A stretch of DNA of 64,000 bases from Streptomyces sp. NBC_01237 (GTDB lineage Bacteria; Actinomycetota; Actinomycetes; Streptomycetales; Streptomycetaceae): positions 1,426,001-1,490,000 of the forward strand of contig NZ_CP108509.1 of assembly GCF_035917275.1 (NCBI RefSeq). Reading direction: 5' to 3'. Of the stretch, positions 24,634-54,565 are shown piece after piece. A program made the position numbers and the translations under genes. Under the pieces are notes generated by a model, which was not told the DNA's origin, did not search any database, and saw only the letters and a program-made list of their open reading frames with translations. Positions within the stretch are counted from its first letter, which is position 1. Every line of letters begins with the position of its first letter.

Positions 24634-25147
24634 GGCGCGCTCCTCCGCTTCCTCTCGTGGGCGTCGGGTCCGGAAACCGTCACGGACTCGGGGACGGCCA
24701 CCGTCTTTCCCGTACGGATCCCACTAAACAACGCACCCCGCGACGGCGCCCCCGGAGGCGGGATCAGGAGTGCCCCGAGGCCGGCGGGGCATCGGCCGGA
24801 TGCCGTGCGGACGTAGTGGCCCAGCCCAACCGGCCGGCCCCGACGTAACGCGGACTGCCGCCTGCCGAAGATCTGAGCCGACCACAGCGCAGAGGGACTG
24901 AACGGCCCAGGAGCGAAATGGACAGCCCCGGTATGGAGTGCCGAGGCCACGACCGGGCCAGCCTTTTATGAGACAGGCTGTGAACCATGGCCAGACTCGT
25001 GGGTGTCCCGATCAGTTGTGGACGACGACCGGGGCGGCCCGGGGCGGCCTCCGGCCATCGTGGAAGGGCTCCGATAGAAACCCACCGGTGTCATGGGCGA
25101 TTCTCAGGACAGGCGAGCACCGTACGTGCGACGAGGGAAGGCGTTTC
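24634..25147. other. 514-base stretch without a gene
   Basis: Divergent intergenic region between the basic small protein and the phosphoketolase pseudogene. No coding frame here has a ribosome site or family resemblance. No strong repeat was noted. Confidence 0.5.
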
Positions 25148-39514: not shown

Positions 39515-42040
39515 CTACGCCAGGCACGGCCGCGGCGGCGCGCCCCCCGCCGTTACCCGCCCCGCGCCGTCGTCCCGGCCCCGCAGGGGCCCGGTCTCCA
39601 CCGGGGCGTGCCCCGGGCGACGGCTGTGGACCGCGCGGCGACGCGCTCCGCCGGGCAGCTCGCTCCCAGCCGCCCCGGCCGCCGCCGTACCCCCGGGCCA
39701 TACCGTCCCGGACCCGTACGCCCGACCCCGCCGCGACGGAAAGCCGTCCAGCACCAGGGCCAGCTGCCACACCACCACGTCCCACTTCCGCCGCTCCGCC
39801 ACCCGCCGGGCCCCCGCGAGACACGCCCACTCATTGCGGAACCAGGCCCCCGCCGCGCGCCGGTCCGCGGGCCGCTGCGGAGTCACTCCCGGCAGCGGTG
39901 GCCCCAGCCACACCGGCGGATACCGGTACGGGTCCAGCAGCCGATCGGCCGCCCGCGCCGTGTGCAGATAGTGGTCCAGCACCCGCCGCAGCGCCCGCTC
40001 GAACGGTTCCGCCTCCCGCAGCTCGGCCGAGTACAGCCGCACCAGCGCGTTCACCCGATACCGGCCGGGCCGGTGCTGCTCCACCAGATGGACCGCCTCC
40101 AGCTCTCGCAGCAGCGCCCGCGCCGACGCCGGGGAACGGCCCAGCAGACTCCCCGCGGCGCCCAGCCCGATGTCCGGCCCAGGCACCGCCGACAGCAGCC
40201 GGAACGCCCCGGCCGCGGCACCGCCCAGCGCCCGGTACGACAGACGCAGCGCCGTCCGGACATCCGCCGACGGATCATCCGTGCCCAGCGCGGTCAGCCG
40301 CCCCGCCTCGTCCCGCAGTTCCTCGGCGAGGGCCGCCAGCGGAAAGCCGGGCCGGGCCGCCGCCCGCGCCGCGACCACGGCGAGCGCCAGCGGCAGGCCC
40401 GCGCACTGCTCCACGAGGGCCGCCGTCGACTTCGGCTCGGCCGTCGGCCGCGCCTCGCCCAGCCGGTGGCCGAGCAGTTCCCTGGAGTCCGCCCCGGACA
40501 GCGTGGACAGCGGCACCGTCCGCGCCCCCTGGGTGACGGCGAGCCCGGTCAGCCGGCGGCGGCTGGTGACCAGCACGGCGGCCCCGGCGCTCGCCGGCAG
40601 CAGCGCCGCCACCTGCTCGGCATCCGCGGCGTCGTCCAGGACGATCAGCACCCGGCGGTCCGCGACCACGCTCCGGTACAGCCCGGCGAGCGCCCCCTGA
40701 CCGGCCGGGACCGCCCCCGGGTCCGCACCGAGACCGCACAGGAGCAGCCGGAGTGCCTCGGTGGGCGCCAGCGGAGCGCCCTCGCGGGCGAACCCGCGCA
40801 GATCCACGTACAGCTGGCCGTCGGGGAAGCGGCGGGTGTTCCGGTGCGCCCAGTGCAGTGCCACCGAGGTCTTGCCGACCCCCGCGCCGCCACTGATGAC
40901 ACACACCGGCCCCGCGCCGGAACCGCCGCCGGGCGCCCGGTCCGCCGTCTCGTCCGGCGACTGGCCCAGTGCCCGTTCCAGGAGGGCGAGTTCAGCCGTA
41001 CGCCCGGTGAAGCACCGTGTCGCGGGAGGAAGCTGATGCGGCACCGCGCCGGTGCGCTGCCCGTCCGGGAGCGTGCGGGGGTCCGGCTCGGTGAGGGAGC
41101 CCGCCCCGGCGGAGGAGCGGGACACCGCGGAGAAGCCGGACACCGCGGGGGAGCTGGTCACCGTGAGGGAGCCCGCCGTCCCGGTGACCGGGGCGGAACC
41201 GGTCACCGGGACGGCGGCCGACCGCCCGGCCGGCCCGAGCGCCGGATCGCCCGCCAGCACCCGCTGATACAGCCGCCGCAGCTCCAGCCCCGGATCACTG
41301 CCCAGTTCCTCCGCCAGCGCGCACCGCACCCGCTCGAAGCAGCGCAGCGCGTCCGCCGTCCGCCCGCTCCGGTACAGCGCGAGCATGAGCTGGGCTGCCA
41401 GCCGCTCGTCCCAGGGGTGCTCGTCGTGGCAGGCACCCAGCTCCGGCAGGAGCTTGCTGTGACACCCCAGCCACAGCGCCAGGTCGTTGCGGTCCAGCCG
41501 ACAGGCGTGCCGCTGCTCCGACAGCGAGGCCCGTACCGCGTTGAACCACGGGGTGTCCACCCCCGCGAACGGCTCGCCCCGCCACAGCGCGAGCGCCCGG
41601 TCGTACAACTCCAGCGCCCGGTCACCGTCGGCGGCCCGCGCCCGCGCGACCAGATCGTGGAAGAGATGCGCGTCCACCGCGCCCGGACCGGCGAGCACCG
41701 TGTACCCGCCGGGCCGCCGCACGATGGCGGACCACCCCGTACCGGCCTCCTCCGATACGGCGGAGCCCTGTGCGGGCCGCTCCAGCACCCGGCGCAGCCG
41801 TGACAGGTAGCTGTGCAGCGTCGCGGTGACCTGACGCGGCGGCCGGGCACCCCACACCCGCTCCGCCAGCCCCTCCAGGGGCACCAACCGGTCGGCGTCC
41901 ATCAGCAGCGCCGCCAGGACGGTCCGCTGCCGGGCCGGGCCCAGGTCCATACGGCATCCGTCCCGCCGTGCCTCGATCTCCCCGAGCACTCCGTACCCGA
42001 TGTCCAACGCGTCCCGTCCGTCCGCTGAGTGCCATCCCAC
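39515..42040 (-). CDS. SARP (AfsR-type) regulator with BTAD and NB-ARC ATPase domains
   Basis: 841 residues from the ATG at 42040. Order: OmpR-type DNA-binding domain (residues about 25-105: GPARQRTVLAALLMDADRLV, TLHSYLSRLRRVL), BTAD helical domain to about 265, linker, NB-ARC ATPase with Walker A GGAGVGKTS and RRVLIVLDDAAD, then a helical region (YLHTARAADRLLDPYRYPPV). The TPR domain found in full AfsR proteins is missing; the last 80 residues are low-complexity. It is divergent from the cysteine-rich peptide genes, with tandem 11-bp repeats in between. It is the obvious pathway activator. Confidence 0.88.
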   Translation of the reverse strand: MGWHSADGRDALDIGYGVLGEIEARRDGCRMDLGPARQRTVLAALLMDADRLVPLEGLAERVWGARPPRQVTATLHSYLSRLRRVLERPAQGSAVSEEAGTGWSAIVRRPGGYTVLAGPGAVDAHLFHDLVARARAADGDRALELYDRALALWRGEPFAGVDTPWFNAVRASLSEQRHACRLDRNDLALWLGCHSKLLPELGACHDEHPWDERLAAQLMLALYRSGRTADALRCFERVRCALAEELGSDPGLELRRLYQRVLAGDPALGPAGRSAAVPVTGSAPVTGTAGSLTVTSSPAVSGFSAVSRSSAGAGSLTEPDPRTLPDGQRTGAVPHQLPPATRCFTGRTAELALLERALGQSPDETADRAPGGGSGAGPVCVISGGAGVGKTSVALHWAHRNTRRFPDGQLYVDLRGFAREGAPLAPTEALRLLLCGLGADPGAVPAGQGALAGLYRSVVADRRVLIVLDDAADAEQVAALLPASAGAAVLVTSRRRLTGLAVTQGARTVPLSTLSGADSRELLGHRLGEARPTAEPKSTAALVEQCAGLPLALAVVAARAAARPGFPLAALAEELRDEAGRLTALGTDDPSADVRTALRLSYRALGGAAAGAFRLLSAVPGPDIGLGAAGSLLGRSPASARALLRELEAVHLVEQHRPGRYRVNALVRLYSAELREAEPFERALRRVLDHYLHTARAADRLLDPYRYPPVWLGPPLPGVTPQRPADRRAAGAWFRNEWACLAGARRVAERRKWDVVVWQLALVLDGFPSRRGRAYGSGTVWPGGTAAAGAAGSELPGGARRRAVHSRRPGHAPVETGPLRGRDDGAGRVTAGGAPPRPCLA

Positions 42041-42058
42041 CGGCCGCCGCCGATTTCA

Positions 42059-42080
42059 GATTTGCTCAAGATTCGTGCAA
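42059..42080 (+). promoter_or_regulatory. SARP-type tandem direct repeats
   Basis: GATTTGCTCAA (42059-42069) and GATTCGTGCAA (42070-42080) agree at 8 of 11 positions and lie in direct tandem at 11-bp spacing, one helical turn, as SARP-binding sites do. They sit in the 126-base gap between the divergent SARP gene and the peptide genes, about 90 bases before the first peptide frame. Confidence 0.6.
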
Positions 42081-42166
42081 GGGCGTCCCCGGAAGCTGAC
42101 GGGGCCGAAGACGCTTCCACGCAATCGGCCGGGAGCACACCGAGTCCCCTCACCCAGAGGAAGTCC

Positions 42167-42404
42167 ATGCGCATGTGGTTCCAGAACCGGCCCGGTTCTT
42201 TGACCGGCCGTCCGGTCCCACAGGCGGAGGCCGCCGCCACCGGGCGCCGGTACGGGGAATCCCCCGCCGCCCGACAGGGCGCACCGGCTCCGCGGCGCGA
42301 CCCGGTACCGGCCTCCGGACGGCCGTGACCCGTCACGTCCGCGCCGACGGCAGCCGCGTTTCCCGCGCCACCGCCGCGAGCGCCGCAACGGCCGGTCGGC
42401 CCCA
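42167..42404 (+). pseudogene. Decayed paralog of the six-cysteine precursor peptide
   Basis: CCCAGAGGAAGTCC precedes an ATG whose first 24 codons align in register with the leaders of the two downstream peptides (MRMWF..., VPQAEAAA). After that the frame is unlike the family. In another frame the sequence HVRADGSRVSRATAASAATA matches the end of the first intact peptide (QVCADGSRSYRGVRCARCNG), with Cys changed to Arg or Ala. The gene has therefore suffered a frameshift and lost its cysteines. It is the first of three tandem copies. Confidence 0.65.
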
Positions 42405-42444
42405 GGGCCGGCCGCTCACAACAACACCAACCGAAGGACCTCTC

Positions 42445-42666
42445 ATGCGCGCGTGGTTCGAAAACCTCTCCGACTCCCTGATCGACCGCCTGGTCCCCCG
42501 GGCGGAGGCCGCCGCCGCCACCGAGTGCTGGACCGAGGAGATCTGCCAGCAGGGGCCGCTCCAGCTCTGCGGCTCCACCGGCCGCTGGGGCTACTTCATC
42601 TACCAGGTGTGCGCCGACGGCAGCCGCTCCTACCGGGGCGTCCGCTGCGCCCGCTGCAACGGCTGA
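42445..42666 (+). CDS. Six-cysteine precursor peptide (putative RiPP-like or defensin-like), copy 1
   Basis: 73 residues; GAAGGACCTCTC precedes the ATG. The first 27 residues form an amphipathic, non-hydrophobic leader (MRAWFENLSDSLIDRLVPRA, then EAAAA). The remaining 46 residues (core) carry cysteines at 28, 34, 42, 56, 68 and 71, rich in aromatic residues between Cys 42 and 56 (GSTGRWGYFIYQV). The leader lacks a Sec-type hydrophobic core, so export through the ABC transporter is likely. AEAAAA offers an A-x-A cleavage site for the S26 peptidase. Three disulfides are expected in the mature peptide. No known family recognised. Confidence 0.78.
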   Translation: MRAWFENLSDSLIDRLVPRAEAAAATECWTEEICQQGPLQLCGSTGRWGYFIYQVCADGSRSYRGVRCARCNG

Positions 42667-42718
42667 CCCACCCCCGGCACCATCCCTCACCCACCTCTCC
42701 TCGACGAAAGGGTCTCCC

Positions 42719-42940
42719 GTGCGCAAGTGGTTCCGGAAACTGTCCGATGATCTGGTCGACCGCCTGGTCCCCCGGGCGGAGGCGGCCGCCGCCGTCCAGT
42801 GCTGGACCGAGGAATCGTGCATCCGGACGATGATCCCGGTGTGCCACCAGACCGGCTTCAGGGCGCTCTCCACCTACCAGGTCTGTTCCGACGGCACCCG
42901 CTACTACCAGAGCTATCGCTGCGCCAACTGCACCGCCTGA
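42719..42940 (+). CDS. Six-cysteine precursor peptide, copy 2
   Basis: 73 residues from a GTG (AAAGG upstream). The leader (MRKWFRKLSDDLVDRLVPRA, EAAAA) and cysteine positions (28, 34, 42, 56, 68, 71) match copy 1 exactly, giving the same spacing C-x5-C-x7-C-x13-C-x11-C-x2-C. The residues between cysteines differ (IRTMIPV; HQTGFRALSTYQV; SDGTRYYQSYR). Conserved cysteines with variable loops are what one expects of a disulfide-rich peptide under diversifying selection. It lies 52 bases after copy 1 and about 80 before the MauE-like gene. Confidence 0.78.
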   Translation: MRKWFRKLSDDLVDRLVPRAEAAAAVQCWTEESCIRTMIPVCHQTGFRALSTYQVCSDGTRYYQSYRCANCTA

Positions 42941-43023
42941 CCAGCCCGTCGGCCCCTGGCGGGGGAGGGGGAACTCTCCCGCCGCCCCCGCCGGGGGCCA
43001 CCCCCTCAAAGAAGGACACCGTC

Positions 43024-43620
43024 GTGGAACTCGCCCTCTGGGCGGTCCGGGGCTGTCTGCTGCTGGTGTTCACGCGCTCGGTCATGGGCAAGGTACGGAG
43101 CCGGGCCGCCTTCGCGGAGTTCACCGGGACCGTGCGCTCCCTGCCGCCCGCCCGGCCGCTGTCCGCCCCGCTGCCCGCCCGCACCCTCGCCGTGCTGGTG
43201 GTGACCGCGGAGGCCGCCCTCGTACCCGCCCTCGCCCTGCCGGGCGTTCTCGCACCCCCGGCCGTACTCGCCGCCGGGCTCGGGACCGCCGCCGTGCTGC
43301 TCGCCGCATTCACCGCGCTGGCCGCCGACGCCGCCCGCAGGGGCAGTCGTGTCCCCTGCCGCTGCTTCGGCCGTACGACGACCCCGCTCGGCGCCGTCCA
43401 CGCCGTACGCAACTCCGTTCTGCTCGCGGTGGCGGTCACCGGCCTCGTCGCCGTCACCGTCACCGGGCGGTCCCCGGAGGCGGGCGACCCGATGGGGGGC
43501 GACCCGATGGTGGTGCTGACCGCCCTTCTCGGGGGTGCGGTCCTCGGCCTGCTCGTCACGGCCCTCGACGACCTCGCCGCGCTCTTCCGTCCCCTGCCCC
43601 GAAAGGAATCCGCCCCGTGA
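43024..43620 (+). CDS. MauE/DoxX-like redox-associated membrane protein
   Basis: 198 residues from a GTG at 43024 (GAAGGACACC upstream). Four to five hydrophobic segments are present. The motif VPCRCFGRT (CxCFG), between the third and fourth, is the cysteine motif of the MauE family, whose founding member is needed for disulfide-dependent maturation of methylamine dehydrogenase light chain. No methylamine dehydrogenase genes are present, so the natural substrate here is the cysteine-rich peptide. The stop overlaps the next gene (GTGA). Confidence 0.85.
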   Translation: MELALWAVRGCLLLVFTRSVMGKVRSRAAFAEFTGTVRSLPPARPLSAPLPARTLAVLVVTAEAALVPALALPGVLAPPAVLAAGLGTAAVLLAAFTALAADAARRGSRVPCRCFGRTTTPLGAVHAVRNSVLLAVAVTGLVAVTVTGRSPEAGDPMGGDPMVVLTALLGGAVLGLLVTALDDLAALFRPLPRKESAP

Positions 43621-44213
43621 ATCCGCTCGCCGTCGCCATCCTCGCCGTCGGAGCCCTGGCCCTGGTCAACCTCGTTCTCACCGTCGGTGTCGTCCGACGG
43701 CTGCGTGAACACTCCGACCTGCTGGAGCGCGCACCGGTGCCCGCCGTCGGCATGCCCGAGGGCATGTCCGGGATCGCGGCCGTCGGCACCTCGATCCCCT
43801 CCTTCACCGCGGGCCCGCCCGACAGCCCCGTCACCGACCGGGATCTCGCCGACGGAACCCTCGTCGCGTTCTTCTCGCCCACCTGCGCGCCCTGCCGCGA
43901 CAAGCTGCCCGGCTTCGTCGCCCGCTACGCGGACCGGCCCGAGGAGGCCCGGCGGGTACTCGCCGTGGTCGTCGACGACTCGGGCGACTCGCACGGCTCG
44001 GACGAGCACGGCTCGGGCGCGTCCGACGCGTCGATGGCCGCCGCTCTTGCCGCCGTGGTGCCCACCGTCCAGGAGTCCCATGACGGCCCGGTGACCCGGG
44101 CTTTCGCCGCCAAGGCGTTTCCCAGCTGTGTACAGGTGGGACACGGCCCCGACGGCGGTCTCGTGGTGACCGAGGTCGGCCGGTGGCCCCGTACCCCCGT
44201 CGCCGCCCGGTGA
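43617..44213 (+). CDS. Membrane-anchored thioredoxin-like (TlpA/MauD-type) protein
   Basis: 198 residues from a GTG overlapping the MauE-like stop. One N-terminal membrane anchor (LAVAILAVGALALVNLVLTV) is followed by an extracytoplasmic domain with FFSPTCAPCRDKLPGF, a CxxC thioredoxin active site. It would exchange disulfides with the peptide outside the membrane, with the MauE-like protein as electron partner. A Ser/Asp/Gly-rich insert (SGDSHGSDEHGSGASDAS) lies after the active site. The stop overlaps the ABC gene. Confidence 0.85.
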   Translation: MNPLAVAILAVGALALVNLVLTVGVVRRLREHSDLLERAPVPAVGMPEGMSGIAAVGTSIPSFTAGPPDSPVTDRDLADGTLVAFFSPTCAPCRDKLPGFVARYADRPEEARRVLAVVVDDSGDSHGSDEHGSGASDASMAAALAAVVPTVQESHDGPVTRAFAAKAFPSCVQVGHGPDGGLVVTEVGRWPRTPVAAR

Positions 44214-46180
44214 CCGGCCCCGCCGCCGGACCCGGTGACGAGCCCGACGACTCCCCGCTCCTCACCGTGATGGCCGCCGCGGTCCGCCTCGCCCGCCGGG
44301 CGGCACCCGCCACACTCACGGGCTGGCTGCTGCTCACCGTGGCCGCGTCCGCCGCCCCGGTCGCCGCCGCCTGGACCCTCAAGACCGTGATCGACCGGCT
44401 GGTCACCGGCCCCTCCGCCGGCGGCTCGCTCACCGGTCCGGTCCTGCTGCTGGTCGGCTGCGGTGTCGCCGTGGCCGTCGTACCCCAGTTCCTCCAGTAT
44501 CTGCGGGCCCAGCTCGGCCGGGCGGTGGGGCTGCGCGCCCAGATCGAACTGCACACCGCCGTCGACCGGTTCACCGGTATCGGCCCGTACGAGAACCCGC
44601 GCTTCCTGGACCGGCTGCGGATGGCCCGTCAGTACGGCGGCTCCGCCCCGGTCGACGCGGTCGGCAGTGTCATCGGCACCGTCGGCGCCGTGGTGACCCT
44701 CACCGGCTTCCTCGGCGCGCTCGCCCTGCTCGGCCCCTGGATGGCGGCGGCGGTCCTGGCCTCCGGCGTCCTCGTCCTCGGCGCCGAGATCGCGCTCAGC
44801 CGCCGGCGCGCCGCGCTCGTCTGGTCGGTGGGCCCGGTGGAGCGCCGGGAACTGTTCTACAGCGCCCTCCTGACGGATCTGCGGGCCGCGAAGGAGATCC
44901 GGCTCTTCGGTCTGGGGCGATTCCTCGGTGATCGGATGGTCGCGGAGCGCCGTACCTCGGACGCCGCGAAGCGGGGGATGGACCGTCAGGAGCTGGCCGT
45001 CCAGGCGGGGCTCGCCCTGCTCTCGGCCCTGGTCGCGGGGGCCGGCCTGCTGTGGGCGGTCTCGGCCGCCCGCTCGGGGCAGATCACGGTCGGCGGGGTG
45101 ACCGTCCTGGTCACCGCGCTGCCCGCAGTGCAGGCGGCCCTGGCCGGTCTCGCCGGCGAACTCGCCATGGGCCACCACGCCCTTCTGATGTTCCGCCACT
45201 TCCTCACCGTGACCGGTGCAGGGCCCGATCTGCCGGTGCCCGCCCGCCCCCGTCCCGTCCCGCCGCTGCGTCACTCGGTGGAGTTCCGTGATGTGTGGTT
45301 CCGTTACGGCGAGGACCAGCCCTGGGTGCTCCGGGGCGTCGATCTGGTCCTGCCCGCCGGGCAGGCCGTGGGCCTCGTCGGCCTCAACGGCGCCGGGAAG
45401 TCCACGCTGGTGAAGCTGGTGTGCCGGTTCTACGATCCCAGCCGGGGGCAGATCCTCTGGGACGGTGTCGACCTGCGCGAGCTGTGCCCGCGTGAGCTGC
45501 GCCGCCGGATGGGGGCGACGTTCCAGGACTTCATGGAGTACGACCTGACGGCCCGCGAGAACATCGCCCTGGGCGATCTCGCCGCGCTCCAGGACCCCGA
45601 CCGGGTGGAACAGGTCGCCCGTGTCGCGGGAATCCACGACCGGCTGACCGGACTGCCCCACGGCTACGACACCCTGCTGAGCCGGATCTTCTTCAGCGAG
45701 CGGGACAAGGACGATGCCACGACCGGCATCGTCCTCTCCGGCGGCCAGTGGCAGCGGCTCGCCCTCGCCCGCTCCCTGATCCGGGACGACGCCGACCTGC
45801 TGGTCCTGGACGAGCCCGGCTCCGGTCTCGACCCCGAGGCGGAGTACGAGATCCACCGCCGGCTGCGGCGCCACCGCGCGGGCCGGGCGGGGCTGCTCAT
45901 CTCGCACCGCCTCAACACCCTGCGCGACGCGGACACGATCGTGGTCCTGGAGGACGGCCGGATCGTCGAGCGGGGACCGCACGCCGACCTCATGCGCCGT
46001 TCCGGGGTGTACGCCCGGCTGTTCAGCCTCCAGGCCAGCGGGTACGCGCCCGACGGCGACGGCGGCGCTCATGGTGAGGGGCCTTCCGCGGTCGCCCCGC
46101 CGCTCTCCGGCGCCGCTGCCGGGACGCAGCCGCCCGCCGTCGTGGTGGCCGCCGCCTCCGGGAGCGGAGGTTCTCCGTGA
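44210..46180 (+). CDS. ABC transporter, fused membrane and ATPase domains
   Basis: 656 residues from a GTG at 44210 overlapping the preceding stop (an upstream ATG frame is less likely). Residues about 25-335 form the membrane domain; residues about 350-600 are the ATPase with Walker A GLNGAGKST, signature LSGGQWQRLALARSL and Walker B LLVLDEPGSGLD. It lacks an N-terminal C39 peptidase domain, so leader removal must be done by another protease; the S26 peptidase gene follows directly. It should export the cysteine-rich peptide. The Pro/Ala-rich tail is of unknown role. Confidence 0.9.
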   Translation: MTGPAAGPGDEPDDSPLLTVMAAAVRLARRAAPATLTGWLLLTVAASAAPVAAAWTLKTVIDRLVTGPSAGGSLTGPVLLLVGCGVAVAVVPQFLQYLRAQLGRAVGLRAQIELHTAVDRFTGIGPYENPRFLDRLRMARQYGGSAPVDAVGSVIGTVGAVVTLTGFLGALALLGPWMAAAVLASGVLVLGAEIALSRRRAALVWSVGPVERRELFYSALLTDLRAAKEIRLFGLGRFLGDRMVAERRTSDAAKRGMDRQELAVQAGLALLSALVAGAGLLWAVSAARSGQITVGGVTVLVTALPAVQAALAGLAGELAMGHHALLMFRHFLTVTGAGPDLPVPARPRPVPPLRHSVEFRDVWFRYGEDQPWVLRGVDLVLPAGQAVGLVGLNGAGKSTLVKLVCRFYDPSRGQILWDGVDLRELCPRELRRRMGATFQDFMEYDLTARENIALGDLAALQDPDRVEQVARVAGIHDRLTGLPHGYDTLLSRIFFSERDKDDATTGIVLSGGQWQRLALARSLIRDDADLLVLDEPGSGLDPEAEYEIHRRLRRHRAGRAGLLISHRLNTLRDADTIVVLEDGRIVERGPHADLMRRSGVYARLFSLQASGYAPDGDGGAHGEGPSAVAPPLSGAAAGTQPPAVVVAAASGSGGSP

Positions 46181-46665
46181 TCGTGCGCCTCGCCCGCCGT
46201 CTGCTGCGGACCCGTCTGCTGGCCGTCACCGTCACCGGCCCCAGCATGGAGCCCGCCCTCCGTGACGGCGACCGCGTCCTCGTGCGCCGCCGCCCGTCCG
46301 GCCCGGCCCGGGGTGATGTCGTCGTCCTCGAACCGCCTCCCGGAGCCCGTGAGGCGGGGCTGACGCACGAGGGGCTGATCATCAAACGGGTCGCCGCCGG
46401 GCCGGGCGACCCGGTTCCGGCCCTCTTCGCCGAACGGCTGGGCGTCCCCCCGGGCGCGGTCGTGCCGCCCGGCCACTACCTGGTCCTGGGCGACAACCGG
46501 CCCCTGAGCGTCGACTCCCGCCGCTTCGGCTATGTCACCCGCGCCCTGCTGACCGGTGTGGTGACACGCCCTCTGCCCCGCCACACCCCCACCGTGCCGG
46601 CCGCCCCCGTCACCACGGCTGATCCGCTCCTCCCCGTGGCGGAGCCGGTGAGGGACGCGGGGTGA
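46177..46665 (+). CDS. S26-family signal peptidase
   Basis: 162 residues, starting at a GTG overlapping the ABC stop. The catalytic Ser is in VTGPSMEPALRDGDRVL, the Lys general base in IIKRVAAGPGDPV, and the end motif is YLVLGDNRPLSVDSRRFGYV. One N-terminal hydrophobic segment is weak, so membrane attachment is uncertain. The gene completes a translationally coupled set (stop/start overlaps through four genes). It is the best candidate to cut the AEAAAA leader of the two precursor peptides. Confidence 0.88.
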   Translation: MIVRLARRLLRTRLLAVTVTGPSMEPALRDGDRVLVRRRPSGPARGDVVVLEPPPGAREAGLTHEGLIIKRVAAGPGDPVPALFAERLGVPPGAVVPPGHYLVLGDNRPLSVDSRRFGYVTRALLTGVVTRPLPRHTPTVPAAPVTTADPLLPVAEPVRDAG

Positions 46666-47633
46666 TCCCGCCCCGGTGGTTCCGCGTCCCCGGAGCACGC
46701 GCCGCCACCGCCGGCCGGTGAGCAAGCTCCCACACCACACCTCGGACTCCGAGGTTCTCCAGCGGACGCCGAGCGGCGACCCGTTCGCGTCCAGGCCCAG
46801 CGAATCGATCCGCCCGCCGTGGACCGGCCCGGTGCCGCTGCGGGCACCACGCGCTCGACGCCCTGCCCGGCAGCTCGTACGAGATCTGCCGGTTGCCCCT
46901 CACCGGTTTCCCTCGAAACGCTCCGTGCCACGGCACAGGAGCGGCAGCGAAGTCCCGGACGGACGCGCTTGTTGGGGTCCTGTGCGCAAGGTCCGACGCC
47001 GCTTCACCGTCGATTCAGGCGATTTGGCCGATGCTCCATGGTCAAAGGGCCACTAGACACTTCGGCAGACCGGCAGGAGTATCACTTCTTATTCCAACAA
47101 GCACGCGGGCCGTCTCCGGGGTGAAACGCTTGGACATCAATAATCTGCAGTGAATCGCTTGGGACGACTGGGTGTTGAAAGGCTTCAACACCACTGACAT
47201 ACCGTTGAATCTCTGCGTGCTTCAGGAAAGAACAGCTGCGGCCTCCACCGCATGGCGGAAAGAGCGGTTCGACGCTGCGCGTCCCGGCTGAGAGATGTGG
47301 GTGCTGAGGAGCAACAGGCATGAGCGAGAGCGGAACGCAAGCATGAGTGCCTTCGGCGCCCGAGTGGGCCGGGTGGCCGATCCGCGGGGCGCGATCGTCG
47401 TCACCCGGGCCTCGTGGAGGTCGGGAGCCACGGTGCGGTGGACCTGTACGCCGCCGGGATCGGCATGGAACCGGACGGGGTCCGCCGCCGCAACGTCATC
47501 GCCGCGGACATCTTCTCCTTCCCTACCGCGACGGGCGCTTGCCACGGCTCCGGTGAACATCGTCGAGGCCGTGCTCGCCGCGGCTGCCGAGCGGCAACCC
47601 GCACCAACCCCGTCCGTGTGAATGAGGAGATCG
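46666..47633. other. 968-base stretch with no intact gene
   Basis: Between the peptide locus and the NRPS locus. From about 47340 to 47621 three frames contain pieces of what was probably one protein (VGRVADPRGAIVVTR; GSHGAVDLYAAGIGMEPDGV; ALATAPVNIVEAVLAAAAER), which I cannot identify. A 22-bp palindrome is at 47171-47192. 46666-47150 holds nothing I can support. Confidence 0.4.
47171..47192. promoter_or_regulatory. Palindromic operator candidate before the NRPS locus
   Basis: GGTGTTGAA (47171-47179) and TTCAACACC (47184-47192) are perfect 9-bp inverted arms around AGGC. It lies in an A+T-richer stretch upstream of the carrier protein and carbamoyltransferase genes and could be an operator or a short hairpin. 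Confidence 0.5.
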
Positions 47634-47885
47634 ATGGAAGCCGATTGGCCTGAAGAGTTCGAGACCCTCGTGCGCGGCTATCTGCCTCGTCTGCGCGATG
47701 AGGACCGACTGCATCCTGATTCCGACCTGATCAACCTGGGTCTCGATTCACTCAACGCGGTCGGACTGCTGCTGGATCTTGAGGGGGCATTCGACGTGAT
47801 GGTTCCCGCCGACGGGCTCAATATCAGGACCGTGCAGTCCCCGAGTTCCCTGTGGTCGACGATCGACGAACTGCGCAAGGCGTAA
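47634..47885 (+). CDS. Free-standing acyl/peptidyl carrier protein
   Basis: 83 residues from the ATG at 47634 (TGAGGAGATCG upstream). The phosphopantetheine serine is in LINLGLDSLNAVGLLLDLEG. It is acidic and helical as carrier proteins are. It opens the small NRPS locus: carbamoyltransferase, C-A-PCP module and LLM monooxygenase follow in the same direction. It may hold a starter or an aminoacyl group passed to the condensation domain. Confidence 0.88.
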   Translation: MEADWPEEFETLVRGYLPRLRDEDRLHPDSDLINLGLDSLNAVGLLLDLEGAFDVMVPADGLNIRTVQSPSSLWSTIDELRKA

Positions 47886-48099
47886 AGGCCGAGGTTGTGC
47901 ATACCCATCGACGGCGGCTGGATTCTCTGCTGCCACTCCCGCAGGGTAATGAAATCGCGAAGGCAGAACCGAGTAGGCGGCCCAGGGCGGTCGGACCGCC
48001 TCTCGGCCTGTGAGGCGCATGTGAACGGCTGGCCGGCGGCACTGCCGGCGAGGGCCCCTGTCCCTTGCGCCGGCAGTGCCCAAGGGAATTGAGGAATCC

Positions 48100-49770
48100 A
48101 TGCTCATCTGCGGAATCAAGGCTACCCACGACGGAGCGGTCGCGGTCATCGAGGACGGCCGTCTCCTGTTCAGTATCGAGACCGAGAAGATAGAAAATGG
48201 TGACCGCTACAGTTCACTGGGCGATCTGCGGAAGGTGTCCGACATCCTCGACCGCGAGGGACTGTCACCGGCCGATGTCGACCAGTTCGTGATCGATGGC
48301 TGGTACACGACCGACGCGAGCGGTGCGCACGCCGTCACAGTGAACAACGGCGACCGGCCGGTGGAGCTCCCCGTCGCCCCCTACGTGGAGACCTTTGGCG
48401 GCGCGGAACCACTGCAGCGGCACAGTTTCGACGGTGCCGACTTCATCGGCGGTTCCGACTATGCCAGCTTCCACCACGTGGCCCATCATCTTCTCGCCGC
48501 CTACTGCACGAGCCCCTTCGCCGCGAACGGCGAGGACGCGCTCGCCCTGGTGTGGGACGGGGGCATCGCGCCACGGCTCTACGAGGTGCGGGCCGCCACT
48601 CGCGAGGTGACGTTGGTCTCCGTGCTGCTGCCGATCACGGGCAACAGCTTCGCGAACTTCGCCGGGGAGTTCAGCCCGTACGCGGCGGACCTGACTGGCC
48701 TGACGCCGGACGAGGTGCTCCGCCACCGCCTGTCGATCGCGGGTAAGGCGATGGCGTACTCGGCACTGGGTACAGCGGAGCCCGATGCCTTCCCCTTGCT
48801 CGATGATCTCATCGCTGAATTCCCCAGCGTGAGCATGAAGAACGCACGGACCATGGGGGCGAAGGTCGCCTCGAACCGAGACGAAATGATGCCGGGCATG
48901 TCCGACGCGGACATCATCGCCACGTTTCAGGAGTACCTGGGTCAGCGTCTGCTGAACCGGCTGGCCGCAGTCGTGAGGCGCAGGTTCCCCGACCGTCGGC
49001 CCAATCTGGTGCTCGGTGGCGGCTGCGCCCTGAATATCAAGTGGAACAGCTTGATCCGCGCGAGTGGGCTCTTCGGGGACGTATTCGCACCGCCGTTCCC
49101 GAACGATGCCGGAGCGGCCATCGGCACAGCCGTGTGCGAGTCGTTCCACCGCGGGAACCTCGCACTCGACTGGGACGTCTACACCGGACCCGCGCTGGTC
49201 GCCGGCCCGGTTCCCGACGGATGGCAGGCGCGGCCGTGTGACGAGGTGCGGCTGGCGCAGCTTTTGCACACGGAGGGCGAACCGGTGGTCGTCCTTTCGG
49301 GACGTGCCGAGTTGGGCCCGCGCGCCTTGGGCAACCGGAGCATCCTGGCTCCCGCCGATGATCCCGGGATGAAAGCCCGGCTCAACGCGATGAAGAACCG
49401 GGCCGATTACCGGCCGGTGGCCCCGATCTGCCTGGAAGCCCGGGCGCCCGAGGTGTTCACCCCCGGCACTCCGGACCCTCACATGCTGTTCGAGCACCGG
49501 ATGCGCCCCGGGTGGGCCGAACGCGTCCCGGCCGTCGTCCACCTGGACGGTACCGCCAGGCTTCAGACCATCGGCGACGACAGCAGCTCGGCCGCCGTCC
49601 GGATCCTCACCGCGTACGAGGAGATCAGCGGTCTGCCCGTGCTGTGCAACACCAGCGCGAACTTCGAGGGGCGCGGCTTCTTTCCCGACGTGGCGTCGGC
49701 CGCCCGTTGGGGAGGGACGCGCTACATCTGGTCGGAAGGCGTGTTGTACACGAATACGGTGCCCCGATGA
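48100..49770 (+). CDS. Carbamoyltransferase (NodU/CmcH family)
   Basis: 556 residues from the ATG at 48100 (GAGGAATCC upstream). The N-terminal Kae1-like part begins MLICGIKATHDGAVAVIEDG, with the metal-binding histidines in YASFHHVAHHLLAAY and WDGGIAPRLYEV; the C-terminal carbamoylation part has NLVLGGGCALNIKWNS, LSGRAELGPRALGNRSILAP and VLCNTSANFEGRGF. It transfers a carbamoyl group from carbamoyl phosphate to a hydroxyl or amine of a natural product. It lies between the carrier protein and the NRPS gene. Confidence 0.92.
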   Translation: MLICGIKATHDGAVAVIEDGRLLFSIETEKIENGDRYSSLGDLRKVSDILDREGLSPADVDQFVIDGWYTTDASGAHAVTVNNGDRPVELPVAPYVETFGGAEPLQRHSFDGADFIGGSDYASFHHVAHHLLAAYCTSPFAANGEDALALVWDGGIAPRLYEVRAATREVTLVSVLLPITGNSFANFAGEFSPYAADLTGLTPDEVLRHRLSIAGKAMAYSALGTAEPDAFPLLDDLIAEFPSVSMKNARTMGAKVASNRDEMMPGMSDADIIATFQEYLGQRLLNRLAAVVRRRFPDRRPNLVLGGGCALNIKWNSLIRASGLFGDVFAPPFPNDAGAAIGTAVCESFHRGNLALDWDVYTGPALVAGPVPDGWQARPCDEVRLAQLLHTEGEPVVVLSGRAELGPRALGNRSILAPADDPGMKARLNAMKNRADYRPVAPICLEARAPEVFTPGTPDPHMLFEHRMRPGWAERVPAVVHLDGTARLQTIGDDSSSAAVRILTAYEEISGLPVLCNTSANFEGRGFFPDVASAARWGGTRYIWSEGVLYTNTVPR

Positions 49771-50013
49771 CGGGCGTGGAGCAGCCGGGCGGGTGAAGGA
49801 GTCGCGCAGGCCCGGCAGTTCACTGGCGTACCCGGTCACGACGCCGATCGAGATCCGGTCCGCCGGCCGGCCGTTCGGAGAGAGACCTCTTCATCGTGGC
49901 CGACGTCGTGCTCCGCGTGGGCGGACCGCCGAGATGACCGGCCTCGAATCGCAGCACGTGGAAACGAACATGGCACGCCCCGACGGGTGTGGGCGCCGAG
50001 AGGACGAAAGGTG

Positions 50014-53000
50014 ATGAGCATGGCCGAGAACCCGGCCCCGGAGAGTCCGACAGCGGCGCTCGGCGGGAACGGTGGAGGGCGTCCCGCGCTGGTCCGGCAG
50101 TCGCGTCCCGTGCTGATCCCACTGTCACCCGCGCAACGGCAACTATGGATTCTTGACAAGGTCGCGGGAGGCGGAGATCGTGCCGCCGCGGCCAACAACA
50201 TCACGTTGGCGCTGCGCCTGTCCGGTCGGCTCGACTCCGCCGCCCTGCGGAGCGCACTCAGTGACCTGGTGACACGGCACGAGGTGCTGCGCACGGTCTT
50301 CCCCGGAACGGAGTCCGAAACCGCCTACCTCGCCCACCAGGTCGTTCTCGGCGCCTTCAGGCCCGCGCTGCCGGTTACCGACATCTCGCCCGGGGAACTG
50401 GATGACGCTCTGGCGGCCGAGGCGGCGCGCGGATTCGATCTGACGGCTGCGCCGCCGATCCGCTGCCATCTGTTCGCGGTCTCGCCGGACGAGCATGTGT
50501 TGCTGATTTCGGTCCATCACATCGCGATGGACCGCTGGTCGTGCGAGCCGCTGGCAGCCGATCTCGCACTGGCCTACACCGCCCGGTCCCAAGGGCTGGA
50601 GCCCGGCTTCGGGCCGCCGGCCGCCCAGTTCGCCGACTATGTCCTCTGGCACCAGCGCATCATGGGCGACGAACGCGATACCGGCAGCCCGGCGGGTTCG
50701 CAGCTGGCCTTCTGGCGGCGGGCGCTGGCCGGACTGCCTGATGAGCTGGACCTACCGACCGAGCGGCGCCGCCCGGCCACGGCCGGCCGGCGCCGCTCGA
50801 CCGTTCCGATCCGGCTTGACGCCGCGCTGCATAGCCGGCTGACACAGCTGGCGCGGACCACCCGTACAAGCTTGTTCATGGTGTTGCAGGGCGGACTCGC
50901 CGCCATGCTCACCCGCCTCGGCGCCGGGACCGACATCCCGCTGGGCTGCCAGGTGGCCGGCCGCGACGACGCGGCCCTGGCGGACATGGTCGGCTGCCTT
51001 CGTAACACGCTGGTGCTGCGGACCGACACATCGGGCGATCCGGCCTTCACCGAACTGCTCGACCGGATACGGAAGAGCGGTCTGGAGGCCCGTGCCAACT
51101 CCGACCTGCCGTTCGACCGCGTGGTGGACGCCGTCCATCCGACGCGCTCCCTGGCCAGGCACCCGCTTTTCCAGATCATGCTGGTACTGCGGAACGCCTC
51201 GGTACGGCAGTTCGCCCTGCCCGGAATCGAAGTCACCGAGCAATACGTGCACACTGCCGACGCACGCTTTGACCTGGTGATCGACTTTCGGGAGGAGCCC
51301 GGCGGCGAACTCGGCGGGGTCGTCGAATACGCCGACGACCTGTACGACCGGGTCAGCGTCGAGCGCTTCGCGGCGCGGCTGGTGCGTCTGCTGCGCGCTT
51401 TCGCCGCGGATCCCAGCCTGCCCATCGGACGGCCGCCGCTGCTGGAACCAGCGGAATTCGAGCGCATGGCGACGGAGTGGCACGGTACCGAGGTAGATGC
51501 GGAGCCGGTTCCCGTACAGCGTCAGTTCGAGGCCCAGGCGCGCCGGACGCCTGACGGTCTCGCGGTGGCCTTCCGCGACCGGCGGCTCAGCTACGCCGAA
51601 CTCGACGCGCGAGCAGACGATCTGGCCCGGCGGATCGCCGCGCGGGGTGTCGGTCCGGAGAAGCTGGTGGCCGTGTGCATGCCGCGATCCGAATGGCTGG
51701 TCGTCGCGTTGCTCGCGGTGCTCAAGGCCGGCGGTGTGTATCTGCCGGTCGACCCGGACTACCCGCCGAATCGCATCGCCTACATCCTGGACGACGCCGC
51801 CCCCGTGCTCGCGCTCGCCACGTCCGCGACGGCTGCCGGGCTTGCGGAGGCCAAGGTGCCGTGCCTGCTCCTGGACGGGGACCCGGCCGACGACAGGCCG
51901 ACCGGCGATGGGCAGGACGCCGACAGCGGTACCGCGGCCCCGGTCCCGCCGGCGGCACCCGCCTTCGTGATCTACACCTCGGGATCGACCGGACGGCCCA
52001 AGGGGGTCGTCATTTCCCACGGCGCGCTGGTCAACCTCCTCGGGGCCATGGGTGAGCGTTTCCCGCTCGGCCACAGCGACCGGTGGCTCGCGGTGACCAC
52101 GATCGCCTTCGACATCTCCCATCTCGAACTGTGGCTGCCGCTGATATCCGGTGCCGGAGTCGTCCTCGCGGACCAGGACATCGTCTACGATCCGGCCGCC
52201 CTCAGCGCCGTCGTCAAGTCCGCCGGAGTTACCGTCATGCAGGCCACGCCATCGCTGTGGCAGTCCCAGCTCGGTGCCGACCTCGACGGCGTGACGGGCC
52301 TGCGGATGCTCACCGGTGGGGAGGTGCTCCCGCCGGCGCTGGCCAGGGCCATGGCGGAGCGGGCAGCTGAGGTGGTCAATGCCTACGGCCCCACCGAGAC
52401 CACGATCTATTCGACGATGGCCACCGTTCCCCCCTCAGCCGGCCACATTTCGATCGGGCGCCCGATCCGGAACACCCGGGTGTACGTCCTCGACGCCGGA
52501 TTGCGGCCGCTTCCGAATGGCGTCGTGGGGGAGCTCCATATCGCCGGCGCCGGCCTTGCCCGCGGTTACCTGAACCGTGCCGCACTGACCGCTGAACGCT
52601 TCGTGGCCGACCCGTTCGGCCCGCCGGGCTCACGGATGTACAGGACGGGCGACATGGCTCGCCGGCGGGCCGACGGCACCCTCGACTACATCGGCCGGGT
52701 CGACCAGCAGGTGAAGCTCCGGGGGTTCCGTATCGAGCTCGGCGAGGTGGAGAACACTCTGGCCGCTCACGGGAGTGTCGCGCAGGCCGCCGTGGTGATC
52801 CGGGAGGACCGTCCAGGGGACAGGCAACTGGTCGGCTATGTGGTTCCCACCGTCCCGGACGGGTCGGTCGCGGCACCTCTCGACCCGGTGGACCTGCGGA
52901 CTTTCGCGGGAGAGGTGCTCCCCGGCTACATGGTGCCCGGATCGATCGTTGTGCTGGACGCGCTTCCGCTGACCCCCAACGGCAAATTGGACCGCGGGGC

Positions 53001-53334
53001 GTTGCCCGCCCCGGAGCTGCCGGACGCTGCTTCCCGTCGGTCTCCCGTTTCCGGGACCGAGGAACTCCTGTGCCGGCTGTTCGCGCAGGAGCTCGGCCTC
53101 GCCGGTGTCGGCGCCGATGTCCCGTTCTTCGACCTCGGCGGAAACAGCCTCACCGCGATCCGGCTGGTCAACGCCGCTCGCAGGGCCGGACTGCCGCTGA
53201 CGGTGCGGGAGGTTTTCGCGCACCGGACCGTCGAGCGCCTCGCTCGTGCCGTCGACGGCCGCTCCGGGGAACAGGAACCCGTGCAGGGGGCCGAATCCGG
53301 CCCGCTCACGCGCCCGCACGGAGCGGACCGGTAG
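50014..53334 (+). CDS. Single-module NRPS: condensation - adenylation - carrier (C-A-PCP)
   Basis: 1106 residues; AAAGG precedes the ATG at 50014. Condensation domain residues about 40-470 with active site HHIAMDRWS (His168-169; the usual DG is DR). Adenylation domain about 500-1010 (YTSGSTGRPKGVVISHG, NAYGPTETTI, YRTGDMARRRADGTLDYIGR). Aligned by eye with GrsA, the specificity code reads D-I-L-Q-L-G-A-I-Y plus Lys, close to a glycine-type code. Carrier domain near 1030-1090 with FFDLGGNSLTAIRL. No thioesterase or reductase domain, so product release must use another protein. Confidence 0.95.
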   Translation: MSMAENPAPESPTAALGGNGGGRPALVRQSRPVLIPLSPAQRQLWILDKVAGGGDRAAAANNITLALRLSGRLDSAALRSALSDLVTRHEVLRTVFPGTESETAYLAHQVVLGAFRPALPVTDISPGELDDALAAEAARGFDLTAAPPIRCHLFAVSPDEHVLLISVHHIAMDRWSCEPLAADLALAYTARSQGLEPGFGPPAAQFADYVLWHQRIMGDERDTGSPAGSQLAFWRRALAGLPDELDLPTERRRPATAGRRRSTVPIRLDAALHSRLTQLARTTRTSLFMVLQGGLAAMLTRLGAGTDIPLGCQVAGRDDAALADMVGCLRNTLVLRTDTSGDPAFTELLDRIRKSGLEARANSDLPFDRVVDAVHPTRSLARHPLFQIMLVLRNASVRQFALPGIEVTEQYVHTADARFDLVIDFREEPGGELGGVVEYADDLYDRVSVERFAARLVRLLRAFAADPSLPIGRPPLLEPAEFERMATEWHGTEVDAEPVPVQRQFEAQARRTPDGLAVAFRDRRLSYAELDARADDLARRIAARGVGPEKLVAVCMPRSEWLVVALLAVLKAGGVYLPVDPDYPPNRIAYILDDAAPVLALATSATAAGLAEAKVPCLLLDGDPADDRPTGDGQDADSGTAAPVPPAAPAFVIYTSGSTGRPKGVVISHGALVNLLGAMGERFPLGHSDRWLAVTTIAFDISHLELWLPLISGAGVVLADQDIVYDPAALSAVVKSAGVTVMQATPSLWQSQLGADLDGVTGLRMLTGGEVLPPALARAMAERAAEVVNAYGPTETTIYSTMATVPPSAGHISIGRPIRNTRVYVLDAGLRPLPNGVVGELHIAGAGLARGYLNRAALTAERFVADPFGPPGSRMYRTGDMARRRADGTLDYIGRVDQQVKLRGFRIELGEVENTLAAHGSVAQAAVVIREDRPGDRQLVGYVVPTVPDGSVAAPLDPVDLRTFAGEVLPGYMVPGSIVVLDALPLTPNGKLDRGALPAPELPDAASRRSPVSGTEELLCRLFAQELGLAGVGADVPFFDLGGNSLTAIRLVNAARRAGLPLTVREVFAHRTVERLARAVDGRSGEQEPVQGAESGPLTRPHGADR

Positions 53335-53518
53335 TCCGTTTCCCTCGTGACGGCCCTGGACGGGCAGTCACATGAAACCCCTGAGGGCTGTCCCAGTTGG
53401 GGCGATGACCGGGGAAACCGAGAGATGAACAACCTGTCGGCATTTGTTCCGCCGCGCCGGAGGCGCCGGAACCAATGCGGCAGATCACCGGCAACAGGTC
53501 GATCACTGGAGGACAGTC

Positions 53519-54565
53519 GTGGATTTCAGTCTTTTCTGCTTCGCTCACGACGGAGCCGACGGAACCCGGCAGATGCCTTACAACCTCCTACTGGAAGGAG
53601 CACGTTTCGCGGACCGGCATGGGTTCGCGGCGGTGTGGACCCCGGAACGGCACCTGCACCCGTTCGGCGGGATCCATCCCAATCCCGCTCTGACGGGCGC
53701 GGCGGTCGCGGCCGTCACGGACCGGGTGGAGATCAGGGCGGGGAGTGTCGTCGGCCCGCTTCGTGACCCGATCAGGATCGCGGAGGAGTGGGCGGTGGTC
53801 GACAACCTCTCCGAGGGCCGCACAGCGCTGTCCTTCGGACCCGGCTGGCCCGGCCCCGATTTCGTCCTGCCGCCGGAGGACTATTCCCAGCGCCGGGAAG
53901 CTCTCCTGCGAACGATCGATGCCGTGCGACGGCTGTGGCGCCAGGAGACCTTCGAACTGGCGGACGGCACCGCCCAACCGGCGGCCAAGCGCATTCACCC
54001 AGCCCCGGTGCGGCCCGAAGTGCCGGTCTGGCTCATGAGTGCGGGCAGCACCGAGACCTGCCGGACAGCCGGCCGGCTCGGCGCCGGGCTTCTCACCCAC
54101 CTGCTCTGCCAGAATCTGGAGGAACTCGCCGAGAAGATCAGCATCTATCGCGAGTCATATACGGGGACCGAAGCGCCACGGGTAGCGCTCATGCTCCCCA
54201 CCTTCCTCGGACAGGACCGCGAGACGGTACGGGAGACCGTCCGTGTCCCGTTCCTGCGCACCAAGGCGGGGTTGCTCCTGCAGGCACCGGGGGACCTCCT
54301 CCCGGGGATGGATCCGGACAACCTCGACCCGGAAGACCTGGACTTCGTCGTCGAGCAGGCTTTCGATCGCTATTTCGAGACCGGCGGGCTGTTCGGCCAC
54401 GTGGAAGATGCCGCGCGGATGCTGGACAGGGTCGCCGAGATCGGCGTCGACGAGGTGGCGTGCATGATCGACCTCGATGTGGAGGCCGGCTCCGTGCTTG
54501 CCGGCCTCGACCGGCTGGCTACGCTCAAGGACACGTGGCAGACCTCGCGGGCAGCCGCCGGGTAG
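53519..54565 (+). CDS. LLM-class luciferase-like monooxygenase of natural-product type (MupA-like)
   Basis: 348 residues from a GTG at 53519 with CTGGAGGACAGTC upstream. Barrel motifs: FADRHGFAAVWTPERHLHPF, IRAGSVVGPLRDPIRIAEEW, ALSFGPGWPGPDFVLPPEDY and WLMSAGSTETCRTAGRLGAG. This is the MupA/Atu3640 group of FMN-dependent monooxygenases that occur inside or beside NRPS and PKS genes. It probably oxidises a carrier-bound intermediate. It closes the small NRPS locus. Confidence 0.88.
   Translation: MDFSLFCFAHDGADGTRQMPYNLLLEGARFADRHGFAAVWTPERHLHPFGGIHPNPALTGAAVAAVTDRVEIRAGSVVGPLRDPIRIAEEWAVVDNLSEGRTALSFGPGWPGPDFVLPPEDYSQRREALLRTIDAVRRLWRQETFELADGTAQPAAKRIHPAPVRPEVPVWLMSAGSTETCRTAGRLGAGLLTHLLCQNLEELAEKISIYRESYTGTEAPRVALMLPTFLGQDRETVRETVRVPFLRTKAGLLLQAPGDLLPGMDPDNLDPEDLDFVVEQAFDRYFETGGLFGHVEDAARMLDRVAEIGVDEVACMIDLDVEAGSVLAGLDRLATLKDTWQTSRAAAG

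Follow-up and report, generated by a model that had tools for sequence, protein, structure and literature searches.

The locus lies within a 64,000-nucleotide window of the genome of the soil bacterium Streptomyces sp. NBC_01237 and contains two plus-strand genes for 73-residue precursor peptides, precursor 1 at positions 42445..42666 and precursor 2, with a GTG start, at 42719..42940. In agreement with the preliminary description of this DNA, both carry six cysteines at identical positions (28, 34, 42, 56, 68, and 71). The tail of the plus-strand ORF at 42029-42328, read by eye, contains a decayed third copy (42167..42328) with a leader-like start and no cysteines. No Pfam or NCBIfam family was found for the precursors; DurB-like (0.028) and DUF7462 (0.32) matches were taken as noise. 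Further along the plus strand are genes for a MauE-type membrane redox protein with a CxCFG motif (43024..43620; PF07291, 1.3e-16, 61.5 bits against a cut-off of 27), a membrane-anchored TlpA/MauD-like protein of the thioredoxin fold with a CAPC motif (43617..44213; AhpC/TSA, 6.5e-5, at 23.3 bits under the cut-off of 26), an ABC exporter comprising a TMD and an ATPase (44210..46180; ABC_tran, 6.5e-27, and ABC_membrane, 0.002, the latter below cut-off), and an S26 signal-peptidase-like protease with its serine in GPSMEP and its lysine in IIKR (46177..46665; PF10502, 2.3e-22). Stop/start overlaps had been described as following directly from the precursors. These are present, at 4 nt each, at the mauE/tlpA, tlpA/ABC, and ABC/S26 junctions, but 83 nt without overlap separate precursor 2 from mauE. 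The SARP regulator reported to stand divergent is indeed encoded on the minus strand (39515..42040), as a SARP/AfsR-type protein with BTAD (1.1e-36) and NB-ARC (1e-9) matches in Pfam and AfsR-like NCBIfam matches under cut-off.

Genes for lanthionine, lasso, thiazole, or radical-SAM chemistry had been noted as missing, and we found no Lan, radical-SAM, lasso cyclase, or YcaO match for the two precursors, the four operon proteins, or the SARP regulator in Pfam or among the NCBIfam matches listed (25 of 190 for the ABC protein). The operon proteins likewise gave no RRE-type Pfam match, no immunity gene was recognised, and a search of the operon DNA against plasmids returned no match.

The precursor leader is an amphipathic segment of about 24 residues that is not Sec-like. 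It is better conserved than the region behind it: the two precursors are identical at 18 of 24 leader residues and at 16 of 43 non-cysteine core residues, and mean pairwise identity among relatives is 45% for leaders versus 23% for non-cysteine cores. An Ala-x-Ala motif closes the leader at fixed spacing, with alanine at P+4 in 77 and at P+6 in 79 of 80 anchored sequences, a rule that predicts cleavage motifs at 42508..42516 in precursor 1 (Ala22-Ala23-Ala24) and at 42782..42790 in precursor 2, both on the plus strand. Ala-x-Ala is the motif cut by signal peptidase. Cleavage after Ala24 would release a mature peptide of 49 residues with six cysteines, slightly longer than the 46-48 residues first estimated. 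For the two peptides cut in this way, the calculated average masses are 5475.1 and 5597.2 Da with the cysteines oxidised and 5481.1 and 5603.3 Da with them reduced. Because no Peptidase_C39 domain appears among the Pfam matches of the ABC protein, leader removal would need another protease. The S26 protein is of the bacterial type, scoring 81.9 bits with TIGR02227 (cut-off 47) and 18.4 with the archaeal TIGR02228, under its cut-off of 51.85. A short ORF with a conserved leader and a variable core beside modification and export genes is the arrangement expected of RiPP- and bacteriocin-like systems.

We examined 65 mauE-centered Streptomyces loci, picked by MauE similarity alone, in which S26 was scored with a motif-built profile. 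All four genes, together with a small cysteine-rich ORF carrying the same kind of leader, were present in 57 of them. Such co-occurrence in MauE-selected loci is therefore not due to chance, and the gene set is conserved together in other genomes. Counting loci truncated by the edge of a contig as well as whole ones, 53 of 392 sampled genomes of the genus carry this type, and it extends to Streptosporangiales, Pseudonocardiales, and Nocardia. The gene set, which appears to be uncharacterised, is present in many actinomycetes with very different peptides, and the NBC_01237 locus belongs to a large family that is essentially undescribed.

Apart from an even number of cysteines, the cores of this family vary freely. 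Cysteine number was even in 84 of 85 cores in a first set and in 138 of 142 in a larger one (four odd), the latter leaving out one complete MauE-matching locus with a 10-cysteine precursor. Among spurious small ORFs used as controls, 152 of 213 had even counts, or 31 of 92 without the four-cysteine bin. Even numbers point to complete disulfide pairing, and this parity implies disulfides in the cores, the modification of the product itself being a prediction from sequence. The three-disulfide architecture first proposed fits the six cysteines of this precursor pair but does not extend to the family, in which cores contain 4 to 10 cysteines and 8- and 10-cysteine members make up 53 of 142. An alternative use of so many thiols is metal binding, with TlpA making or keeping them reduced and the mature peptides acting as chalkophore or metallothionein-like products. 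The high cysteine fraction of the cores (mean 0.17) and the CxPC form of the TlpA motif in 15 of 21 sequences are compatible with this idea. However, metal binding does not need even parity over 4, 6, 8, and 10 cysteines, and a compact core fold is predicted confidently without metal, so we regard it as quite improbable.

The motifs of the redox pair are strongly conserved. Both cysteines of the MauE CxC motif are invariant in 19 of 19 aligned sequences; in TlpA, the first cysteine and one proline, taken as the thioredoxin cis-Pro, are present in 21 of 21 sequences and the second cysteine in 20. CxPC is common in thioredoxin-type reductases and counts against the direction originally assumed, so that oxidation by the pair is putative. 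Maturation of methylamine dehydrogenase likewise involves a MauE-family membrane protein and a thioredoxin-like partner, but no light chain of that enzyme was found with the present locus, its redox genes are partnered with an ABC exporter and S26, and its substrate is a small leader peptide. Consistent with the reported absence of methylamine dehydrogenase, the light-chain profile PF02975 found nothing in the genome that could count as a real match (best E 2.18). Across 246 genomes of the phylum, it had no match over cut-off, and a single sub-threshold match (8.4e-4) fell in a distant family. A seeming resemblance to MauA had raised the possibility that the peptides derive from this light chain, which neither profile nor PF02975 searches supported. 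We also considered a role like that of MauA in methylamine dehydrogenase, in which the peptides would not be secreted free but would serve an enzyme as a small subunit or a folding partner. In its favour, PMC7794033 describes MauE, with a MauD-like partner, as acting for methylamine dehydrogenase in other settings. Against it, besides the PF02975 results, the operon contains no partner enzyme, and hypervariable cores under one leader in tandem copies are unlike an enzyme subunit, making this very improbable.

Together, gene co-conservation, even cysteine number, a fixed Ala-x-Ala motif matching S26, and conserved redox motifs strongly support the central proposal of the preliminary description, a dedicated line for maturing an exported disulfide peptide. 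The gene set, its conservation, the Ala-x-Ala motif, the even cysteine number, and the conserved redox and catalytic residues can be read directly from the sequences, as can a core fold that is confidently predicted. From these features, the products of the operon are likely to be small, exported peptides with every cysteine in a disulfide, made by means of MauE/TlpA, the ABC exporter, and S26. The leader would address the cysteine-rich precursor to the dedicated set; the MauE/TlpA pair would handle its thiols, with net oxidation and transfer of electrons from MauE to quinone; the ABC exporter would move the peptide across the membrane; and S26 would cut after Ala-x-Ala, yielding two peptides, each about 49 residues long and held by three disulfides.

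Export followed by oxidation outside the cell, as first envisaged, was not borne out by the charge distribution of the redox proteins. In 60 of 61 TlpA proteins, more Lys/Arg residues follow the TM segment than precede it, and across 64 MauE proteins the mean net charge is +5.1 for the CxC loop and +3.1 for the first loop, with the two remaining loops at -0.9 and -0.1. By the positive-inside rule, these charges suggest a cytoplasmic position for the TlpA domain and for the CxC loop of MauE. The redox pair and the peptidase could form an inside-out disulfide system on the cytoplasmic face, with oxidation of the peptide, and perhaps its trimming, preceding or accompanying transport by the ABC protein. 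The S26 protein of the NBC_01237 locus, which has no clear TM segment, would fit this arrangement, whereas 12 of 16 S26 proteins inspected have a hydrophobic stretch (19-mer mean of at least 1.5) ahead of the serine motif. In addition, positive-inside is only a rule, applied here to MauE and TlpA proteins of this locus type alone, and pumping a 49-residue fold with all its cross-links in place may be difficult. MauD and MauE of methylamine dehydrogenase are themselves thought to serve a periplasmic protein. On balance, we consider the inside-out system somewhat unlikely.

AlphaFold modelled the 49-residue core confidently (pLDDT 94.7); a poor model of the CHVVGG core type (pLDDT 58.6) was left out of the reasoning. 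A fold search of the core model listed the laterosporulin structures 6lwy, 4ozk, and 6lwz, with scores not above those of unrelated entries in a VIA-align list where the absence of a structure means little; the predicted fold is thus weakly suggestive of laterosporulin bacteriocins. Searches against PDB sequences gave chance-level matches only, with no sequence match to laterosporulins. Like the predicted products, these class IId defensin-like bacteriocins of Brevibacillus have about 50 residues, six cysteines, and three disulfides, and they have a beta-rich fold of a kind that the core may adopt. They differ in being leaderless (according to the PDB title of 4ozk), whereas the precursors here have a conserved 24-residue leader; their neighbours, in the excerpt available, are an ABC transporter, a dehydrogenase, a hypothetical protein, and a regulator, with no mention there of MauE, TlpA, or S26. 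Actifensins, the defensin-like peptides of Actinomyces, are also actinobacterial, with a six-cysteine core behind a 32-residue leader, several precursor copies, and nearby ABC genes. Their cysteine spacing is different, however, most of their leaders close with a GA-type motif followed by Glu, they are accompanied by a subtilisin-like protease and not S26, and the word thioredoxin is absent from the text of their description.

Leader removal by a signal-peptidase-I-like enzyme has been reported for the linear polyphosphorylated peptides (Nat Commun 2026, PMC13381572), whose authors state that no such peptidase was previously known from RiPP pathways. That system is from Bacillota, is RRE-dependent, and relies on an archaeal/SipW-type peptidase, unlike the bacterial-type S26 found here in actinomycetes, in an operon without an RRE-type Pfam match. 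Three mauE-containing candidate RiPP families were listed without characterisation by decRiPPter (PLoS Biol 2020, PMC7794033), from Streptomyces sp. 2112.3, S. viridosporus T7A, and CS081A. This is the only report of mauE in RiPP clusters among the matches listed for open-licence literature, and it qualifies the view that the peptides belong to no described class, which otherwise mostly holds. As far as the excerpted description goes, Streptomyces mauE (with mauD in one case) lies by a predicted cysteine-rich precursor, and transporter, peptidase, and regulator genes were required by the filter; the precursors have at least eight cysteines, and a leader rule, an S26/Ala-x-Ala link, parity, and breadth are not part of it. 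Compared by description, these candidates probably belong to the same wider family.

Tentatively, we propose a new, widespread class of actinomycete peptides in which a conserved amphipathic, non-Sec leader ending in Ala-x-Ala would deliver hypervariable cores with 4-10 cysteines to a general machine, MauE/TlpA/ABC/S26, for disulfide formation and export. This machine would be largely core-independent, possibly with a cytoplasmic redox center, and would act as a natural plug-in folding platform for disulfide-rich peptides. The class would be a rich source of disulfide peptides yet to be studied, which its exact rule for leader and cleavage site would help to locate. MauE would gain a function beyond amine dehydrogenases, and a signal peptidase of bacterial type would be seen to act on a non-Sec leader. 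Should the machine tolerate different cores, designed disulfide peptides could be folded and secreted in laboratory hosts.

As for biological role, bacteriocin-like antagonism of other bacteria is the most likely, although we hold this at about even confidence. The cores are slightly positive in net charge (mean +0.9) and not strongly cationic. The divergent SARP gene, and SARP-like matches at some other loci, would instead fit a SARP-controlled secreted signal or development factor without antibacterial function, which we judge unlikely. Cores diverge far more than leaders, with up to three precursor copies per locus, a pattern more like that of a repertoire for antagonism.

In the 10.2-Mb genome of Streptomyces sp. 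NBC_01237, the region from 39515 to 46665 holds a SARP/AfsR-type regulator divergent to the operon, a decayed precursor copy, two intact precursors of 73 residues each, and four overlapping genes for MauE, a TlpA-like protein, an ABC exporter, and an S26 protease. As the preliminary description stated, both intact precursors have six cysteines at identical positions (28, 34, 42, 56, 68, and 71). The decayed third copy (42167-42328) has a recognizable leader start and no cysteines. Three related precursors (P0002, P0006, and P0007) occur in Streptomyces sp. NPDC000594.

Close precursor relatives were found in only 6 of 392 genus genomes at an E-value of 1e-3, including the query genome and a same-species genome (G019); in two of the six, G096 and G367, the match lay within a broken locus. 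These remnants, L079 (G096 C6) and L105 (G367 C156), lack mauE and tlpA, with the leader or precursor abutting a truncated ABC gene, and look as if the operon were undergoing deletion. Unlike the close precursor type, the operon type is not rare in the genus: MauE matches at 1e-8 occurred in 56 of 392 genomes, at 67 places, and the operon type, whole or cut, in 53 of 392, three genomes with unrelated mauE excluded. We examined 65 of the 67 MauE-selected loci, all except that of the query genome and one of the two copies in G166. All four genes were present in 59/65, and the full set plus a leader-bearing cysteine-rich ORF in 57/65 (58/64 and 56/64, respectively, plus one further complete locus), ten of the 57 precursors having been first recognized by eye or through weak matches and credited by hand. 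The genes are kept together in other genomes. A leader profile built with those ten precursors included recovered 10/10. The eight incomplete loci comprised unrelated mauE genes (L045, L084, and L085), contig ends (L054, L076, and L094), L052, where no S26 was detected, and L102, where no precursor was. One genome, G137, has two operon copies (L066 and L104) in opposite orientation, about 11.6 kb apart, with the same precursor.

A class-level search with a MauE profile at 1e-10 matched 155 of 394 genomes; among the matches listed, those below 1e-29 were confined to two families. The operon was complete in 15 of 20 class loci, all outside the genus, which were hand-picked from that list, mostly as top-scoring MauE matches; among the incomplete ones (L136, L151, L153, L154, and L155), L153 does carry a cysteine-rich ORF. 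In the species collection, 25 of 28 named loci were complete among the matches listed, including those of Streptomyces klenkii, S. hiroshimensis, S. albireticuli, S. eurocidicus, Planobispora longispora, Planomonospora venezuelensis, Amycolatopsis regifaucium, Actinophytocola xinjiangensis, Umezawaea tangerina, and Nonomuraea and Nocardia species; in Kibdelosporangium, mauE stood without the other genes. The locus sets overlap, several named loci being genomes already in other sets. When 23 diverse precursors served as queries against proteins, the search returned 47, whose names, where shown, were only "hypothetical" or "uncharacterized" and none of which had a Pfam domain.

The leader comparison covered 85 different sequences taken from the window, the retrieved loci, and six protein matches, and gave a consensus of roughly M..KLE.LG..LLERLVP....AxA. 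A hydrophobic-hydrophobic-proline anchor was present in 80/85, and the anchored leaders had alanine four residues after the proline in 77/80 and six after it in 79/80. This exact spacing was not built in, since the first pattern required only an alanine within about ten residues of the proline. Hydrophobicity was low (best 12-mer mean 0.65, highest 1.95; n = 85), and stretches free of charged, N, Q, and H residues reached 12 at most, and 7 or fewer in 79/85. Judged by sequence, the leader is unlike a Sec h-region. Mean pairwise identity was 45% for leaders versus 23% for cores without cysteines.

If every cysteine pairs with another cysteine, an even number is expected; if cysteines react with Ser or Thr, it is not. 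Core cysteines numbered 4, 6, 8, or 10 in 84 of 85 sequences and were even in 138/142 once protein matches and named loci were added. Excluded from this count were the two broken loci (L079 and L105), the L100 fragment, near copies (the L040 pair and L159), exact duplicates, profile matches of doubtful standing such as L170, and L186 (10 cysteines). The odd cores were L067 (seven), P0043 (five), L173 (nine), and L179b (seven); L174 and L180, Nocardia relatives of L173, carry ten. Clustering at three cut-offs gave four groups with an odd member out of 72, 53, or 33. Control spurious small ORFs with at least four cysteines from the same DNA were even in 152/213, and in 31/92 without the four-cysteine bin. 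At L141 (G514), one precursor has seven cysteines in all, one inside the leader; removal at AxA would leave six, consistent with even parity being restored by cleavage.

Invariant MauE residues include K23, C112, C114, F115, and G116 (19 aligned sequences). In TlpA, the first cysteine and one proline, which we take to be the thioredoxin cis-proline, were invariant in 21/21, and the second cysteine in 20/21, the exception being L092, which reads CGPT. Loci L090, L092, L093, and L096 each have two TlpA-like matches, and the CGPT protein is possibly a redox-dead paralogue. With a CxPC motif in 15/21, the TlpA proteins may oxidize, isomerize, or reduce. The ABC protein matched transmembrane (weakly) and ATPase domains in Pfam and gave no C39 peptidase match, so that a separate protease is needed. 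The S26 protease retains Ser and Lys and scores as a bacterial signal peptidase I. We propose that the maturation machinery would recognize the leader, that precursor thiols would be oxidized, that the ABC protein would export the peptide, and that the leader would be cut at AxA. The preliminary description had placed export before oxidation by the MauE/thioredoxin-like pair, followed by S26 leader removal. Charge topology, compared among operon-type proteins alone, speaks against this simple export-first order: positive charge was higher after the TlpA transmembrane segment than before it in 60/61, and the MauE CxC loop had a net charge of +5.1.

An earlier survey (PMC7794033) presents three candidate families with mauE, one also with mauD, whose precursors have at least eight cysteines, and argues against a methylamine role; elsewhere, SpI-like peptidases are called new to RiPP pathways (PMC13381572). 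Unlike the operon type here, the actifensin (PMC6989792) and laterosporulin (PMC3293901) loci have no MauE/TlpA-like redox genes described in the consulted portions of those reports; laterosporulins are also covered in PMC8529825 and PMC5396196. A literature search, mostly at listing level, found no characterized product of this operon type.

Elsewhere in the window, 47622-54565 holds a compact cluster neighboring the operon, with a carrier protein, a carbamoyltransferase, a one-module NRPS (C-A-PCP), and a luciferase-like monooxygenase, probably a biosynthetic cluster separate from the peptide operon. An XFP phosphoketolase N-terminal domain lies at 24938-26077 and a SpoIIE-type phosphatase at 31242-32420.
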